The notes under the pieces were generated by a model. It had not been told where the DNA came from, did no database searches, and saw nothing but the letters and a program-made list of their open reading frames with translations. A DNA stretch of 64,000 nucleotides from Microcoleus sp. FACHB-68. GTDB taxonomy: Bacteria > Cyanobacteriota > Cyanobacteriia > Cyanobacteriales > Oscillatoriaceae. How positions within the stretch are numbered: the first letter of the stretch is position 1; each line of letters begins with the position of its first letter. Shown one piece after another: positions 3,825 to 60,949 of this stretch. The stretch is taken from NCBI RefSeq assembly GCF_014695715.1, contig NZ_JACJOT010000008.1:1550001-1614000 (forward strand). The letters are read 5' to 3'. The position numbers and the translations under genes are program-made.

Positions 3825-4355
3825 ATGAAAGCTTTGCAGAAAAGTATAATAGGCTTAGGAAGTATAGGACTGATATTTCTGGCGGCTTGTGGCAATGAAA
3901 CACCGGCAACCAATTCTAGTAACACGAATTCGGCGGTTGCAACCGCTAATCCTGCAACTTCTTCTTCGACAACGACAGCGACAACGACCACTACGACTCA
4001 GCCTAAATCAGAGGCATCTGCTAAAACAGATCATCCCCAAACTTCCCAAGGGGGTCAAGTTATAGAATCTGGACTCTATCATTTGGAATTGGTGCCGGTT
4101 TCGGAAGCAAATGGCACACATATCGATTTTTTCCTGCAAAAAGGTGACACTCACGAAGCTATCTCTGATGCTAAAGTAAGCGCTCAAATTCAGTTGCCGT
4201 CAGGGGAACAAAAAACTCTTGACCTCGACTATGATGCTGCCGGCAAGCACTATGCTGGTTTTCTACCAGAAAAAGCCACTGGAGAGTATAAGGTTGTTAT
4301 GTTAACCGACATTAAGGGTGAAAAAACAAACGGTCGTTTCGCCTTTAATCGGTAA
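3825..4355 (+). CDS. Lipoprotein with YtkA/FixH-like C-terminal domain
   Basis: This 176-residue protein starts with a lipoprotein signal: a hydrophobic core and the lipobox LAAC with the lipidated cysteine at position 22. A Ser/Thr/Ala-rich linker (about residues 25-70) follows, then a beta-rich domain containing SGLYHLELVP, DAKVSAQIQLPSG and YKVVMLTDIKG. This pattern resembles YtkA-like/FixH-like domains, which often sit beside copper-handling genes; that match is from memory and tentative. A strong AAAGGAGGG ribosome site precedes the ATG. The DUF305 lipoprotein gene begins 31 bases downstream, so the two are probably co-transcribed. I infer a periplasmic role in metal handling. Confidence 0.65.
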   Translation: MKALQKSIIGLGSIGLIFLAACGNETPATNSSNTNSAVATANPATSSSTTTATTTTTTQPKSEASAKTDHPQTSQGGQVIESGLYHLELVPVSEANGTHIDFFLQKGDTHEAISDAKVSAQIQLPSGEQKTLDLDYDAAGKHYAGFLPEKATGEYKVVMLTDIKGEKTNGRFAFNR

Positions 4356-4386: not shown

Positions 4387-5013
4387 ATGAACAAGAAAGC
4401 CAAAACTTATACGTTGATTGGGTTGTTAGCACCTCTGGTGATCGCAACAGGATTAAGCAGTTGCAACACTGAAACAAGTCAGGGCAATTTGACGCCGGCA
4501 CCGGCTGCAACCACAACACCCGTCGTTTCTTCTAAAGCAGAAGCAAAAACTCAAATCGATCAAAAATTTATCGAAATGATGATTCCCCATCATCAAGGGG
4601 CAATAGAAATGGCAGAATTGGCTTTAACTAAAGCTAAACGACCTGAGATTAAAAAAATGGCTGAATCAATCATTCAAGATCAAAAACGAGAAATTCAGCA
4701 AATGCAAGGGTGGTACAAACAGTGGTACGGCAAAGAAATTGCTGTTTCATCCTCAATGGATCATTCTGCACATCAAGGGATGATGAGTATGGATATGATG
4801 GAGACGCATCTGCAAAACCTAAAAACTGCCTCTGACTTTGACAAGGAATTTGTTAGGCAAATGATTCCCCACCATGAAGGTGCCCTAATGATGGCGGAAA
4901 TGGTTATTGACACTGGCGAACACGCCCAAATTCGTAATTTGGCAAAATCAATCATCGAAAGTCAAAGTGCAGAAATCAAGCAGATGCAACAATGGCAGCA
5001 AGCCTGGAAGTAA
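4387..5013 (+). CDS. DUF305 family lipoprotein
   Basis: The product (208 residues) is an exported lipoprotein with lipobox LSSC (cysteine 26) and two DUF305 halves. Each half carries the hallmark MIPHH motif: MIPHHQGAIEMAELAL and MIPHHEGALMMAEMVI. DUF305 proteins form ferritin-like helical bundles, and their His/Met-rich motifs are associated with copper or silver binding. A Met/His-rich loop (MDHSAHQGMMSMDMM) joins the two halves. The frame is open further upstream to 4318, but that overlaps the preceding gene; the ATG at 4387 follows AAAGGATGT and starts a proper signal peptide. It probably forms an operon with the YtkA-like lipoprotein. Substrate metal is inference. Confidence 0.88.
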   Translation: MNKKAKTYTLIGLLAPLVIATGLSSCNTETSQGNLTPAPAATTTPVVSSKAEAKTQIDQKFIEMMIPHHQGAIEMAELALTKAKRPEIKKMAESIIQDQKREIQQMQGWYKQWYGKEIAVSSSMDHSAHQGMMSMDMMETHLQNLKTASDFDKEFVRQMIPHHEGALMMAEMVIDTGEHAQIRNLAKSIIESQSAEIKQMQQWQQAWK

Positions 5014-5255: not shown

Positions 5256-5287
5256 TTGACTCTCCTCCTAACTGGAGTGTTTATGAT
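5256..5287 (+). promoter_or_regulatory. MerR-type promoter/operator with long spacer
   Basis: TTGACT (5256-5261) and TATGAT (5282-5287) are separated by 20 bases, longer than the usual 17. The spacer and the end of the -35 box hold an imperfect dyad, ACTCTCC (5259-5265) and GGAGTGT (5274-5280). Long-spaced promoters with ACTC...GAGT dyads between the boxes are the hallmark of MerR-family metal regulators (MerR, ZntR, PbrR, CadR). It lies about 36 bases before the small CPCC peptide gene. The regulator is inferred; a MerR-family gene exists at 60512 but nothing links the two directly. Confidence 0.65.
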
Positions 5288-5322
5288 GTGATTAAGAAGA
5301 CAAATTTATTGGAGCTTTAATC

Positions 5323-5484
5323 ATGATTCTGACAAAACAGACTAAGGCAATCATCAGTGCAGCAGGTATTAGTTTGGTATTGCTAGCGCTAACTGCGGGC
5401 GCTAGTCTAGCAGCAGAAGGCGACTCCCAAACGAGCGGCGGCTGCCCTTGCTGCAAAGAGATGATGAAAGAAGGATCTCACTAG
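5323..5484 (+). CDS. Small exported Cys-Pro-Cys-Cys peptide
   Basis: This 53-codon gene starts at an ATG preceded by GGAG (8-base spacing). The translation has a signal peptide: TKQTK, a hydrophobic core (ISLVLLALTAG) and an Ala-rich cleavage region (ASLAAEG). The short mature part ends in GGCPCCKEMMKEGSH, with three cysteines, two methionines and a histidine. The whole mature peptide is about 20 residues. I do not recognise a family. The soft-metal ligands, the MerR-type promoter upstream and the DUF305 lipoprotein next door suggest an exported metal (copper, mercury or cadmium) chelator; this is inference. It is followed by its own terminator, so it is probably monocistronic. Confidence 0.7.
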   Translation: MILTKQTKAIISAAGISLVLLALTAGASLAAEGDSQTSGGCPCCKEMMKEGSH

Positions 5485-5549
5485 CAGCCTGGATGGCCGG
5501 CACTGTTAAAATGAGCCGAATGATGCTGCCTAAATAGGTAGAAAATATA

Positions 5550-5594
5550 GAAACCCGTTGAACTTAAAAAAACAGGTTTCTTAACCGTTTTTTT
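5550..5594 (+). terminator. Rho-independent terminator after the CPCC peptide gene
   Basis: GAAACC (5550-5555) pairs with GGTTTC (5575-5580), followed by TTAACCG and a run of seven T. It lies 65 bases beyond the CPCC stop codon and well before the response regulator gene. Confidence 0.6.
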
Positions 5595-5754
5595 GCAGTT
5601 GTAACAAAATTGGCTTTAATAGCATTAATTTTTAAATTAATCTATTTTATACAATAAATTGATACTTACAAATAATGTTCAGCTATGATTCTAAGCTGCT
5701 GATTTACATCAGAAGCTTGGAGTATTAACCGTGACAGAGGAAAAATCTATTTTT

Positions 5755-6450
5755 ATGAGGGTTATCCTAGTCGAAGATGAGCCAGATTTGGGTGCGGCAA
5801 TTAAGCGCACTCTCAATCAAGAAGCGTATGTGGTTGATTGGGCGCAAGATGGCGATGAAGCTTGGGGTTATTTAGAAAGTCAGTGGACAGAATACTCGCT
5901 GGGAATTTTTGATTGGTTGCTGCCTGGGGTGTCGGGATTGGAGTTATGTAAACGACTGCGAAAGCGGCATAATTTCATGCCGGTGCTGATGCTAACCGCA
6001 AAAGATCGTATGGAAGATAAAGTCGCTGGATTGGATGCCGGCGCGGATGATTATTTAGTGAAGCCTTTTGGCATGGCAGAATTGTTGGCGCGGTTGCGTG
6101 CACTACAGAGGCGATCTCCCCAAATTCAATCCCAACAGTTGCACTTTGGCAATTTCACGTTAGATTATGGCACCCGCACGCTTTGTTTTCAAGAGGCTGC
6201 CGGTGAGCCGCAAATTATTTCTTTGACAAACAAAGAATTTCAGTTGTTAGAGTATTTTATTAGGCACCCCAATCAAATTGTTACCCGCGATCAACTGCTC
6301 AATCAACTGTGGGAATTAGGTGCGGAACCGGCAAGTAATGTCGTGGCAGCTCAGATGCGTCTGTTGCGACGCAAACTGCAAGAATATGGCTACGCTCAGC
6401 TAATAGAAACTGTTTATGGGCTAGGATATCGTTTTAATCCGGCAAACTAA
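5755..6450 (+). CDS. OmpR/PhoB-family response regulator, RppA-like
   Basis: This 231-residue transcription factor has an N-terminal receiver domain (starting MRVILVEDEPDLG; acidic pocket E8/D9, phospho-acceptor D53 in IFDWLLPG, lysine in LVKPFG) and a C-terminal winged helix with TNKEFQLLEYF and VYGLGYRF. Overall it resembles RppA/NrsR-type regulators of cyanobacteria, which respond to metals or redox; this is recalled, not computed. A GTG at 5731 would add eight residues, but the ATG at 5755 gives the canonical receiver start. Such regulators are normally followed by a histidine kinase gene; here the next gene is an unrelated permease on the other strand, so it is an orphan. Its position next to metal-binding proteins suggests a metal response. 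Confidence 0.85.
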   Translation: MRVILVEDEPDLGAAIKRTLNQEAYVVDWAQDGDEAWGYLESQWTEYSLGIFDWLLPGVSGLELCKRLRKRHNFMPVLMLTAKDRMEDKVAGLDAGADDYLVKPFGMAELLARLRALQRRSPQIQSQQLHFGNFTLDYGTRTLCFQEAAGEPQIISLTNKEFQLLEYFIRHPNQIVTRDQLLNQLWELGAEPASNVVAAQMRLLRRKLQEYGYAQLIETVYGLGYRFNPAN

Positions 6451-55755: not shown

Positions 55756-57117
55756 TTAAGCTTTTTGTGGTTGTTTACCCTTACGCAAGCGACCGGCACC
55801 CAATGCCCCAAATGCCAATAGACCTAATATAGAAGCCGGTTCTGGAACGTTTTCTGATTGATGGCAGGGCATATCACAGGGCATATTTACTTCGTCAGGA
55901 CACGGCTCATCCCCATGATAGGCATGATGGCCCCAAGGATTGTACACATTGCCGGTCGTATCTGAGAATAAGTCTTCCGGGGCGCTGGCCATCAGGAACG
56001 ATGAGAAATTAGTATTAGTGGGAGCAATACCCGGTAATCCGGGGATTAGGGCGGCTAAGTCCGCAGCAACCTTCGATTGACCTCGATCCCAAGGCCACAT
56101 CGGGTCGAGCCGGCTGTGTCCATAGCCCTGGAAACTATTAGGATAAGCCTCTGCACCATTCAAACGACCAGTACCCGCAACAGCAGTCTGCCATCTAGCC
56201 CAAAGGCGATCAACGTTGGCATGAAGCATATAAAACATGGGATCGTTGTTAGAGGCCATCGTGTTCATAGAGCCTCCCACCCAGTTGTGCATGGGGTTGT
56301 GGATGTTTAACTCTAGCCGAGAGTTTAAAGTCTGGTAGCTAGGTGTAGTGAGCGCTGCATCTTCCTGGGCGGCAGTGATCAACCCCCGTGGATTCGCTGC
56401 AGTTCTTGGGGCAAAATTCCCCAAATTGCGTGTCAGTGCCTGTGTGCCGGTGGAGGTTCCCAGCCAAACATCGCCACTCAAGTCACTTCTCTGAACCCAT
56501 CCGTTGGCAGTTGTGAATGGCCCGGTCCGAACCGGCCCCCCAGGGTTTCCATTGGCGTTAAACCCATTACCTCCCATAAAATTTTGGGAAAGAATCACAT
56601 TTTGAGTGGCATTAGCATCCGTCCAATCCCAATAAGGAATGGTTACAGTCGGATCTACTGTTTGCAATGCCCTTTCAAATTCATATATAAACGTCCGGTG
56701 CCACGGCAAAAAGCCGGCCCTGCCATGCGCTGCATTAAATAAAGGACGCCCATCTGGCCCAGGACGACCGGCTAAATCCATCGCTCCCAAATGGGTGGCT
56801 ACAAATTGGTCATACTCACTGACAACAACGCCGTTAGCAGCCCTCACTGTTCTTGTTTTTAACGTCTGGATAGCATTTACGAATCTTGACATCTCATTCG
56901 CACTCAAGCTAGCCGCGTTTCTTCTGACCTGTAAACCTGCTGTGCCGCCCGGAACATTTATACCGGTGTATGTGTAACCCAGCGCCCTAAAATCCAGAAC
57001 GTCATTCGGTCTGTAAAGGTTGCGGCTAAAAGTATATGCTTGCGCTTGTACTGCACCAAACACGATAGCACTGCCTGTTATTAAGCTAAGCCAGCTAGAA
57101 GCGCGTTTTAGATTCAT
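55756..57117 (-). CDS. PEP-CTERM tyrosinase-family copper oxidase (2)
   Basis: The 453-residue paralogue of the previous gene has a signal peptide (ending GAVQAQA), the same YTFSRNLYRPNDVLDF start, and copper motifs VATHLGAMD, AHGRAGFLPWHR, IHNPMHNWVGG and PMFYMLHANVDRLW; here the canonical HH of the last motif is LH, but the copper-binding second His remains. The C-terminus has the same CPDEVNMPCDMPCHQSE spacing and a PEP-CTERM anchor (VPEPAS, helix, RKGKQ). The frame opens at 57138, but GGAAGGATAATTAC lies before the ATG at 57117. The 746-base gap suggests independent transcription of the two genes. Confidence 0.88.
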   Translation of the reverse strand: MNLKRASSWLSLITGSAIVFGAVQAQAYTFSRNLYRPNDVLDFRALGYTYTGINVPGGTAGLQVRRNAASLSANEMSRFVNAIQTLKTRTVRAANGVVVSEYDQFVATHLGAMDLAGRPGPDGRPLFNAAHGRAGFLPWHRTFIYEFERALQTVDPTVTIPYWDWTDANATQNVILSQNFMGGNGFNANGNPGGPVRTGPFTTANGWVQRSDLSGDVWLGTSTGTQALTRNLGNFAPRTAANPRGLITAAQEDAALTTPSYQTLNSRLELNIHNPMHNWVGGSMNTMASNNDPMFYMLHANVDRLWARWQTAVAGTGRLNGAEAYPNSFQGYGHSRLDPMWPWDRGQSKVAADLAALIPGLPGIAPTNTNFSSFLMASAPEDLFSDTTGNVYNPWGHHAYHGDEPCPDEVNMPCDMPCHQSENVPEPASILGLLAFGALGAGRLRKGKQPQKA

Positions 57118-58124
57118 GTAATTATCCTTCCAACACAATACAAATTCAGGGGTGGGATGCTAACCGGCATTCGCAATTTTCTCGGCTGACCCTGAGTTAC
57201 AAATATTTAGTGAATTAAGCCCGCGTTCTTTTGAGATTTGTTGTTACGCTTATCCCAGGATAGAGCCATCTCGACATATTCACTCTCAAAATCTCTGTAT
57301 TTTTACGGAATCTTTATAAATTTAAACCGGAAAAAATAATTTCCCCTTTAAAACGAAGGCAGTAATTTTCATAGTAATTTTTCTATTTTTACTTAAAAAC
57401 TATCATTAAAAATTAATACAAATTGTAAACTTTCTTATGAAGACTGAATATTTTGGTAGGTTATAACTTATAATTAAGCCTTAAATTAGAGCCTTAATAA
57501 ATTTCTATAAATTCATTGTAAGCAATCAGCATCTTTTACGTTAAAAGCTATGAAATGCTTATACAGTAAGCGATTTTATTCGTGACAAAGGTCTAAAAAA
57601 GTGCTTTTTGCATTATTAATAGAACGAAATCCGGATTAATCAGACGAGTAAAGCTGTCAATTTATTTTATTGTTTAAGTTAAAATTATTAAATTTTTGTA
57701 CTTGTACTTAAGTACAGGATATTTTTAACAGCTACTAGATATAGGTTATTTAAAAAAAATTAATAACTGAGTAATGGGTAGTTTTTTTGAACGAAAGCTC
57801 TGTAAAGATTTTGTAAAGCTACATCACTACATGACTAAAAAGATATTATAGAAATATAAGAAATACAAATAGTAAATCCGACAGATTAGTTAAATGACTT
57901 GATGAATGCTTCCAAAAAGCAGACCTTTATAAACTCACCCTAACCCGCAACTTATCACCTGAGCGTCCCCCTACGCAATTACCCGGAGTGCAGGTTAGTG
58001 GTGAGTCTTGAGTGGTGAGGGAGTAACCGAGTGTATTGCTCAAACCCTTGGACTGAATAAGTTTATAGAGCGCTCCACACTCAGCACTCACCACTCAGCA
58101 TGAGAAGAAGAAAATGCTTTAGAC
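57118..58124. other. Long AT-rich gap
   Basis: About a thousand bases without a supported gene, very AT-rich from 57300 to 57900. Heptamer words CACTCAG/CACTCAC occur at 58078-58098, with inverted relatives (GAGTGGTGAGG) near 58005-58021. The left end is the upstream region of tyrosinase 2. Confidence 0.45.
57998..58098. repeat. Heptamer-containing inverted repeat
   Basis: GTGGTGAGTCTTGAGTGGTG (left) and three CACTCAx heptamers (58078-58098) form a loose inverted repeat just downstream of the alanine dehydrogenase stop (minus strand). It may end the transcript; function is unproven. Confidence 0.45.
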
Positions 58125-60511: not shown

Positions 60512-60949
60512 ATGGGCACTCGTGCTATCGCCAAATTGCTTAAAATTGGCGAAGTCGCCGCCGGCACAGGGTTGCCGGTTAAAACTATTCGCTACTACGA
60601 TGAAATTGGTTTGCTGGCTCCTACCGTAGAACGCTCTGATTCAGGATACCGGCTGTTTACCGAAGCGATCATGAACCGGCTCGCATTTATTAAACGAGCG
60701 CAATCTTTAGGACTCAGTCTCAGTGAAATTCAAGAACTTCTAAGCGTCCATGATCGCGGAGAGTTACCTTGCGGTGAAGTTAAACACCGGCTGCAAACTA
60801 AATTAGAGGAAATCGCAGAACAAATTGCCGCGTTAGAAATGCTAAAAGCTGAATTGCAAGGGTTACTGAGCGGATGGGAAGAACAACCGCCGGCTCACCT
60901 CATTGCTCAAACAATATGTCCGAACATTCAATCGAATAATGATGAATGA
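60512..60949 (+). CDS. MerR-family metal-responsive regulator
   Basis: The 145-residue protein has a MerR winged helix (LLKIGEVAAGTGLPVKTIRYYDEIGLL, SGYRLFTEAIMNRLAFIKRAQSLGLSLSEIQELL in outline) and a long dimerisation helix (about 88-120). C87 at the start of this helix is at the place of MerR C82/ZntR C79, and C136 is near the C-terminus, but there is no classic Cys-x7/8-Cys metal loop. It probably senses a metal or thiol-reactive stress. The WD40 gene starts 3 bases after its stop, so the two are an operon. It is a candidate for binding the long-spacer promoter at 5256, though the distance is 55 kb. Confidence 0.85.
   Translation: MGTRAIAKLLKIGEVAAGTGLPVKTIRYYDEIGLLAPTVERSDSGYRLFTEAIMNRLAFIKRAQSLGLSLSEIQELLSVHDRGELPCGEVKHRLQTKLEEIAEQIAALEMLKAELQGLLSGWEEQPPAHLIAQTICPNIQSNNDE

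Follow-up and report, generated by a model that had tools for sequence, protein, structure and literature searches.

A conserved CxCC peptide gene behind a MerR-type promoter and its probable place in a cyanobacterial copper regulon

The peptide gene and its promoter

The window analyzed here is a 64-kb stretch (G000:C8:1550001-1614000) of a 6.5-Mb cyanobacterial genome. It contains a small gene behind a MerR-type promoter, flanked by genes for a CopM-type copper metallochaperone and an RppA-family response regulator (Table 1). The 53-codon ORF at 5323-5484 encodes MILTKQTKAIISAAGISLVLLALTAGASLA / AEGDSQTSGGCPCCKEMMKEGSH, the slash marking the cleavage site read by eye. If cut there, after ASLA, the mature peptide would have about 23 residues. 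The peptide has three Cys and two Met, with an adjacent Met pair (M47-M48) after C41-P-C43-C44. Its hydrophobic stretch and small-residue cleavage motif are common to the CxCC peptides in an alignment of nine members.

Table 1. Features of the peptide locus and related genes in the window
Feature	Position	Strand	Basis
Small lipoprotein-like gene, undescribed	3825..4355	+	No Pfam or NCBIfam family above cut-off
CopM/DUF305 copper metallochaperone gene, upstream neighbor	4387..5013	+	NF049983, 135.3 bits (cut-off 90); PF03713
MerR-type promoter: TTGACT 5256-5261, 20-bp spacer 5262-5281, TATGAT 5282-5287	5256..5287	+	Sequence
Operator dyad ACTCTCC...GGAGTGT inside the spacer	5259..5280	+	Sequence and genome search
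GGAG ribosome-binding site, 8 nt 5' of ATG 5323	5311..5314	+	Read from sequence
CxCC peptide gene (53 aa), product predicted to be exported	5323..5484	+	Translation and homologues in other cyanobacteria
Predicted signal peptide, residues 1-30, cleavage after ASLA by eye	5323..5412	+	Translation; alignment of nine
Putative metal-binding core C41-P-C43-C44-K-E-M47-M48	5443..5466	+	Alignment of nine members
Weak hairpin then T run, possible terminator	5549..5594	+	Centroid pairing
RppA-family response regulator, next gene downstream	5731..6450	+	NF041734, 407.4 bits (cut-off 250)
MerR-family regulator, candidate	60512..60949	+	Cys87 and Cys136 of the clade present

A sequence-only reading of this DNA had given the small gene its own ribosome site and terminator. 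The ribosome site is in place, as GGAG. The terminator was not borne out: a terminator scan found none, and only a weak hairpin follows it (centroid pairing about 5549-5581, T run about 5588-5594; z -1.89 for the whole 116-nt region). The peptide had no match in Pfam at E up to 1. NCBIfam returned one match for the window peptide, at 14.2 bits far below the cut-off of 50. Among solved structures none was related at E below 0.5, the best being PsbX (E 0.56). No published description of the family was found in a literature search that covered few subscription papers.

Positions 5256-5287 have the makeup of a MerR-activated promoter, namely -35 and -10 hexamers, a spacer of 19-20 bp and a dyad between them. 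The 20-base-spaced promoter with the dyad ACTCTCC...GGAGTGT, claimed from the letters alone, was thus confirmed in the sequence, where its pattern has a single match in the window. The exact dyad occurs twice genome-wide, at 5259-5280 and at L001; the second was judged a chance match, with no suitably spaced TTGAC on inspection by eye. The operator pattern TTGACYCTN8CTRGAGNNTNTANNNT, with 18 specified positions and up to three mismatches allowed, matched the 64-kb window once, without mismatch, against 0.10 matches expected from shuffles. A pattern built on the window site gave five matches with up to three mismatches in the whole genome and none for the reversed control. Because these matches exceed the shuffles in the window and the reversed control in the genome, the promoter is not a chance occurrence.

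Conservation of the CxCC family and its operator

Protein searches placed the CxCC family at 17 loci in 16 cyanobacterial genomes, the window included; 16 is a lower bound, because a limited number of candidates was scored per genome. Of the matches from the first search, which covered 100 relatives, two proved to be real homologues (L004 and L005), and a TTGAC-N20-TAxxxT promoter lies a short way upstream of each. A profile of three members, run against 388 genomes of the class, recovered more members, and a profile of nine, run against 388 genomes of the order, recovered further ones. A search of the phylum (386 genomes) gave no new CxCC member among the matches followed.

From the first search, L006-L008 (stops inside the match) and L009 were rejected as chance. 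Another match, L017, has one TGA inside it. The 38 places of the class search comprised eight CxCC members, 22 judged non-members after a scripted check of their loci for a CxCC ORF, and eight without a locus. The order search gave 21 places: 11 CxCC, six variants, one Met-rich relative (L212) and three chance matches (L051, L213 and L214, the first judged on a stop codon and score only). The 15 phylum matches were three known members and 12 set aside on score, including L051, which returned later.

All nine aligned members have C41, C43, C44 and M47; the M47 position is His in the later-found L211. A Met lies three residues after CxCC in 16 of the 17 loci, with a second Met no more than three residues from it, and in six of the 17 the two Met are adjacent, as they are in the window. 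Two close pairs of homologues are under purifying selection: L015/L016 (dN 0.064, dS 0.776; differences by codon position 3/3/18) and L011/L012 (dN 0.034, dS 0.139). Homologues elsewhere and dN below dS in both pairs indicate that the ORF is not a chance one. The gene is real, conserved and apparently undescribed. The earlier claim of a real gene for an exported-type Cys/Met peptide therefore stands on the 53-aa ORF, its homologues, dN below dS and the signal-peptide-like start, and its description as new agrees with the lack of any Pfam or NCBIfam family above cut-off.

Protein searches did not find the gene in two congeneric genomes. A plasmid scaffold of Pseudanabaena biceps carries one homologue, and a homologue is also present in Phormidium tenue FACHB-1050; a search of PLSDB for plasmid-borne relatives gave no match for two queries. 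The patchy distribution and the Pseudanabaena biceps plasmid homologue suggest an accessory, mobile trait.

The operator, with up to two mismatches, lies within 200 bp upstream of 16 of the 17 CxCC loci. By contrast, it was found at that distance in 0 of 5100 first-order Markov resamples of the CxCC upstream stretches and before 3 of 100 other ORFs, which encode a CopA-type ATPase, a MerR protein and an F510-family protein. The pattern was derived from eight of the first nine CxCC loci; all eight of the later loci, found by protein alone, also fit it, five of these belonging to the same genus as L010. The start of L210 was set at an internal ATG, because the operator site overlaps the first ATG. 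The exception, L014, has no operator within 200 bp (best, eight mismatches). By eye, TTCAT repeats precede L014, at a spacing other than that of the CopR-type site, given as TTCATN4-5TTCAT in the available part of PMC4182526. Conservation in related genomes, on which the sequence-only reading had made its peptide depend, was thus found, together with the promoter, at all but one of the loci, with the two congeners lacking the gene.

Variants of the peptide share the operator. Besides one CxCC copy, genome G093 encodes four paralogues (L216, L218, L219 and L220), three with CGGCC or CGSCC and L219 without the first Cys. Genome G693 has one CGSCC and one CGCGKC form. All six variants carry the operator with one or two mismatches, and the Met-rich relative L212, which has no Cys motif, carries it with one. 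Searching from the operator side added the longer CxCC proteins L116 and L194 and the Met-rich protein L092. The same operator class also precedes a 61-residue, exported-looking metallothionein-like peptide, GCGCGGSGSCTCGVNCTCTNCGN (L066:1580-1765), which has a near copy in L067.

Genes behind the operator class and candidate regulators

Beyond the peptide gene, the window's own genome has sites 42 bp 5' of copZ, followed by copA, and 252 bp 5' of a merR gene, the latter weaker. Both have two mismatches, so that the same site stands before copZ-copA and merR in one genome, as in a CueR-type regulon. The ATPase behind the copZ site matches the copper-translocating family TIGR01511 at 663.7 bits (cut-off 397). 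The other two of the five sites have three mismatches each: one (L199:1501-1532) lies 5' of a gene for a His-rich, exported-looking protein, and the other has no clear gene behind it.

A pattern from eight homologous promoters, allowed at most one mismatch, had matches in 104 of the 388 class genomes, and its reversed control in 3; within the genome that holds the window its only match among the matches listed is the site at 5256-5287. We assembled at least 141 distinct cyanobacterial sites, fetching most of the listed matches and including sites in loci fetched for the peptide. The best downstream match was MerR at 37 sites, CopA at 24, CopM at 13, a multicopper oxidase (MCO) at 10, the CxCC peptide and a Grx-like protein at 9 each, CopZ at 7, and an F510-family protein, the lipoprotein and RppA at one each; 29 sites received no label. 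Labels came from BLAST to reference genes from these loci or, for Grx-like and CxCC, from motifs; MCO and Grx are motif-based names, not profile-based ones.

The sequence-only reading had likened the promoter to ZntR/PbrR targets. What the class precedes instead is copZ-copA and merR here, and copA, copM, MCO, copZ and merR elsewhere. By this content, the operator class marks what reads as a CueR-like copper regulon, not a ZntR/PbrR-like one, and copper is the likely metal. A literature search covering few subscription papers found no published MerR-type copper regulon in cyanobacteria. An independent link between the regulon of this operator class and CxCC copper sites is provided by an exported-looking DUF411 (CopG-family) protein with CGCC, encoded behind the same operator class at L178:983-1468.

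Neighborhoods were compared at 25 peptide loci: the 17 CxCC loci, four CxxCC or degenerate paralogues (L232-L235), the longer CxCC L236 and L237, the metallothionein-like L238 and the Met-rich L239. Genes for CopM, CopA, MCO, Csp, a cupredoxin or a Cus-type RND protein lie within five ORFs of the peptide in 20 of the 25 and in 14 of the 17 CxCC loci; the five without them are G093a, G166 and L230, which are CxCC loci, and L237 and L238. At six of the 25 (L042, L043, L044, L226, L228 and L229) the gene immediately before the peptide is a divergently oriented MerR gene. Downstream, the next ORF runs opposite to the peptide gene at 18 of the 25 loci (11 of the 17 CxCC loci) and in its direction at seven. 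As the reference genes came from the same kind of locus and the ORFs were called mechanically, the counts of 20 and 18 are descriptive. For L227 and L228 (= L206 and L207) an internal Met was used in the neighborhood count, the true starts being GTG.

Other genes recur at these loci. The lipoprotein-like family (window 3825-4355; L042:5615-6091; L045:6695-7195; L194:1537-2010) adjoins or nears CxCC peptides, and adjoins RND pump genes in the last three. A thioredoxin-like protein of 95 to 100 residues with a CPLC/CSLC motif (L042:4300-4587 and relatives in L043, L044 and L046) sits near the MerR gene or the peptide. Elsewhere in the window, 55756-57138 encodes another copper-type protein, with a tyrosinase domain and a PEP-CTERM anchor (PF00264, PF07589).

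The genome has three MerR genes: two belong to the clade found at peptide loci (60512-60949 and one on contig C2), and the third is L041. We compared 52 complete MerR translations from the loci, in which at least one gene occurs twice (L005 and L049, with two starts). A Cys aligned with the CadR metal Cys is present in 51 of the 52 and a second Cys near the C-terminus in all 52; in no other column does Cys reach 15%. CueR, by comparison, carries Ser at the CadR-aligned position and a pair of Cys in its C-terminal loop. The window MerR scored 90.7 bits against the CueR family TIGR02044 (cut-off 147.4), which places it outside CueR proper. For three MerR proteins tested, the NCBIfam CadR-PbrR, ZntR, MerR and CueR scores were close and all below cut-off. 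As a group, the clade (60512-60949, L040 and the MerRs at the loci) has two conserved Cys, one of them at the divalent-sensor place, and is encoded near or behind copper-type operators. The apparent copper regulon thus seems to be under a regulator whose Cys is of the divalent type, and copper is not certain as inducer, because the MerRs keep this CadR-type Cys and not the two C-terminal Cys of CueR. Either the clade uses a different Cys pair to sense Cu(I), or copper is not the only signal to which the regulon responds.

Role of the peptide and comparison with known systems

MerR activators work by DNA untwisting. We consider it probable that the gene product is a small peptide that is exported and binds copper, as part of a CueR-like copper regulon in cyanobacteria. 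An activator of the MerR family, sitting on the dyad, would bind metal in the cytoplasm, presumably copper, and untwist the over-long 20-bp spacer to turn on transcription. The 53-residue product would be exported and trimmed to about 23 residues. Once outside the cytoplasm, its CxCC and nearby Met would take up Cu(I), perhaps in a small CopG-like cluster bridged by thiolates. There the peptide could buffer copper, to the cell's presumed benefit, beside CopM, RND efflux, the multicopper oxidase and the CopZ-CopA pump. Export and copper binding are strongly suggested, and the metal-chelator reading first made for this Cys/Met peptide is supported as a reading. The gene, its promoter, its family, the shared operator class and the genomic neighborhood are observed and speak for a copper peptide; the RppA-type and Cus/Czc-type neighbors, which are not copper-specific, speak against one, as do the missing operator of L014, the His of L211, the directly doubled Met in only six of 17 loci, the lost Cys of L219, the three CxCC loci with no strictly copper-type gene nearby and the two congeners that lack the gene. 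A larger claim is possible, and we offer it tentatively: that minimal exported peptides shrink the CopG cluster site to a tail of about 20 residues that serves as an extracytoplasmic Cu(I) buffer, within a copper regulon under an unrecognised MerR clade that senses copper by a Cys pair with one Cys at the divalent-sensor position.

Several other explanations were weighed. Its 53 codons and its absence from two congeners might suggest a spurious ORF beside a promoter serving another transcript, but this idea is refuted in the main by the homologues, purifying selection in two pairs and promoter linkage, and we give it virtually no credence. It is very improbable that the ORF is regulatory, its nascent exported peptide sensing copper and controlling a downstream gene like CutF/CruR. 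Such short exported Cys proteins exist, as the available parts of PMC9973294 and PMC9426467 describe, and RppA follows on the same strand in the window, as does some next ORF at seven of the 25 loci. We rejected this reading on the opposite-strand next ORF at 18 of the 25 loci (11 of 17 CxCC) and on the alignment of nine, which has no proline-rich or RAPP end; DUF2946 is also missing, given that Pfam had no match at E up to 1. A bufferin-like RiPP precursor, in which the cysteines would become copper-binding heterocycles, is a similarly faint prospect. Bufferins are exported Cys peptides that sequester periplasmic copper (PMC12452194, from the part available), and PF05114 is matched, in part, in the genome G712; yet this MNIO enzyme family was not found in the other 15 of the 16 peptide genomes, including the window's, on which ground the reading was rejected, and no member scanned had a Pfam match to Buf1 (DUF2282).

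Two further readings carry more weight. Rather than a buffer, the peptide might be a copper chaperone or redox partner that gives Cu(I) to CopM, an RND pump or an MCO, which we regard as unlikely but worth entertaining. Such genes are co-located at 20 of the 25 loci, and CopG and CueP are proposed, in the accessible portion of PMC7558416, to pass copper on. Neighbors differ between loci, so there is no fixed partner, and the short tail would leave little room for partner recognition. Buffer and chaperone cannot be told apart by sequence. Alternatively, with the anatomy unchanged, inducer and ligand could be another thiophilic metal (Zn, Cd, Pb, Hg or Ag), in line with the ZntR/PbrR comparison of the sequence-only reading, making the peptide an exported soft-metal scavenger. 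The CadR-aligned metal Cys kept in 51 of 52 regulators and the close, sub-cut-off scores of three of them against CadR-PbrR, ZntR, MerR and CueR are in its favor, as is the operator, which we take to resemble PbrR/CadR sites. The targets, however, are copper genes (copZ-copA here; copA, copM, MCO and copZ elsewhere), and we judge this distinctly unlikely.

Small exported copper ligands are hard to spot in annotation, and the cyanobacterial copper control found in the literature, as far as its available text goes, is CopRS of Synechocystis. A copper-binding CxCC peptide would raise two questions: the minimum size of an extracytoplasmic copper site, and how a MerR with a divalent-type Cys runs an apparent copper regulon. 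Both are directly testable because the family brings a precise operator, a regulon and a short peptide that can be synthesised.

Among known systems, metallothioneins are cytoplasmic and have many Cys in CxC/CC repeats; the window peptide differs in its three Cys and signal-peptide-like start, and has no Pfam match. With the CueR, ZntR, PbrR and CadR regulons the locus shares the 20-bp-spaced promoter with a dyad and a MerR-family regulator, but in its MerR clade only two positions have a conserved Cys. CopM of Synechocystis is likewise a cyanobacterial copper protein, and the window's CopM gene adjoins the peptide gene; CopM is, however, a DUF305 protein and in Synechocystis is under CopRS, not MerR, in the available part of PMC4182526. 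CutF and CruR (DUF2946) are, like the putative copper peptide, short exported Cys proteins tied to copper. According to PMC9973294 and PMC9426467, they end in a proline-rich or RAPP stretch and stand first in an operon, whereas the peptide has neither such a stalling end nor DUF2946 and no same-strand next gene in 18 of 25 loci. The bufferins Buf1 and Buf2 resemble it as small exported Cys peptides that sequester copper, the role proposed here. They differ in needing an MNIO enzyme (PMC12452194, available portion), found in one of the 16 peptide genomes and not in the window's; Buf2 has six or twelve Cys, against three in the window peptide. CueP of Salmonella, as described in PMC7558416, is exported, binds copper and is induced by a copper regulator of the MerR family, an arrangement that the peptide would share; compared by description only, CueP differs in having about 180 residues folded into two domains.

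The closest likeness is in CopG (DUF411, PF04214), whose tetranuclear copper site is reported to combine CxCC with two adjacent Met and whose genes are linked to copA/cus genes (PMC7558416). The window peptide has CxCC and two adjacent Met as well, is predicted to be exported like CopG, and shares its operator class with the DUF411 protein of L178. CopG, by contrast, has a thioredoxin-like domain, whereas the mature part of the peptide would span about 23 residues, with neither a DUF411 match nor a thioredoxin-like domain. The CxCC peptide thus seems to keep the kinds of ligand found in CopG while dropping the CopG fold.
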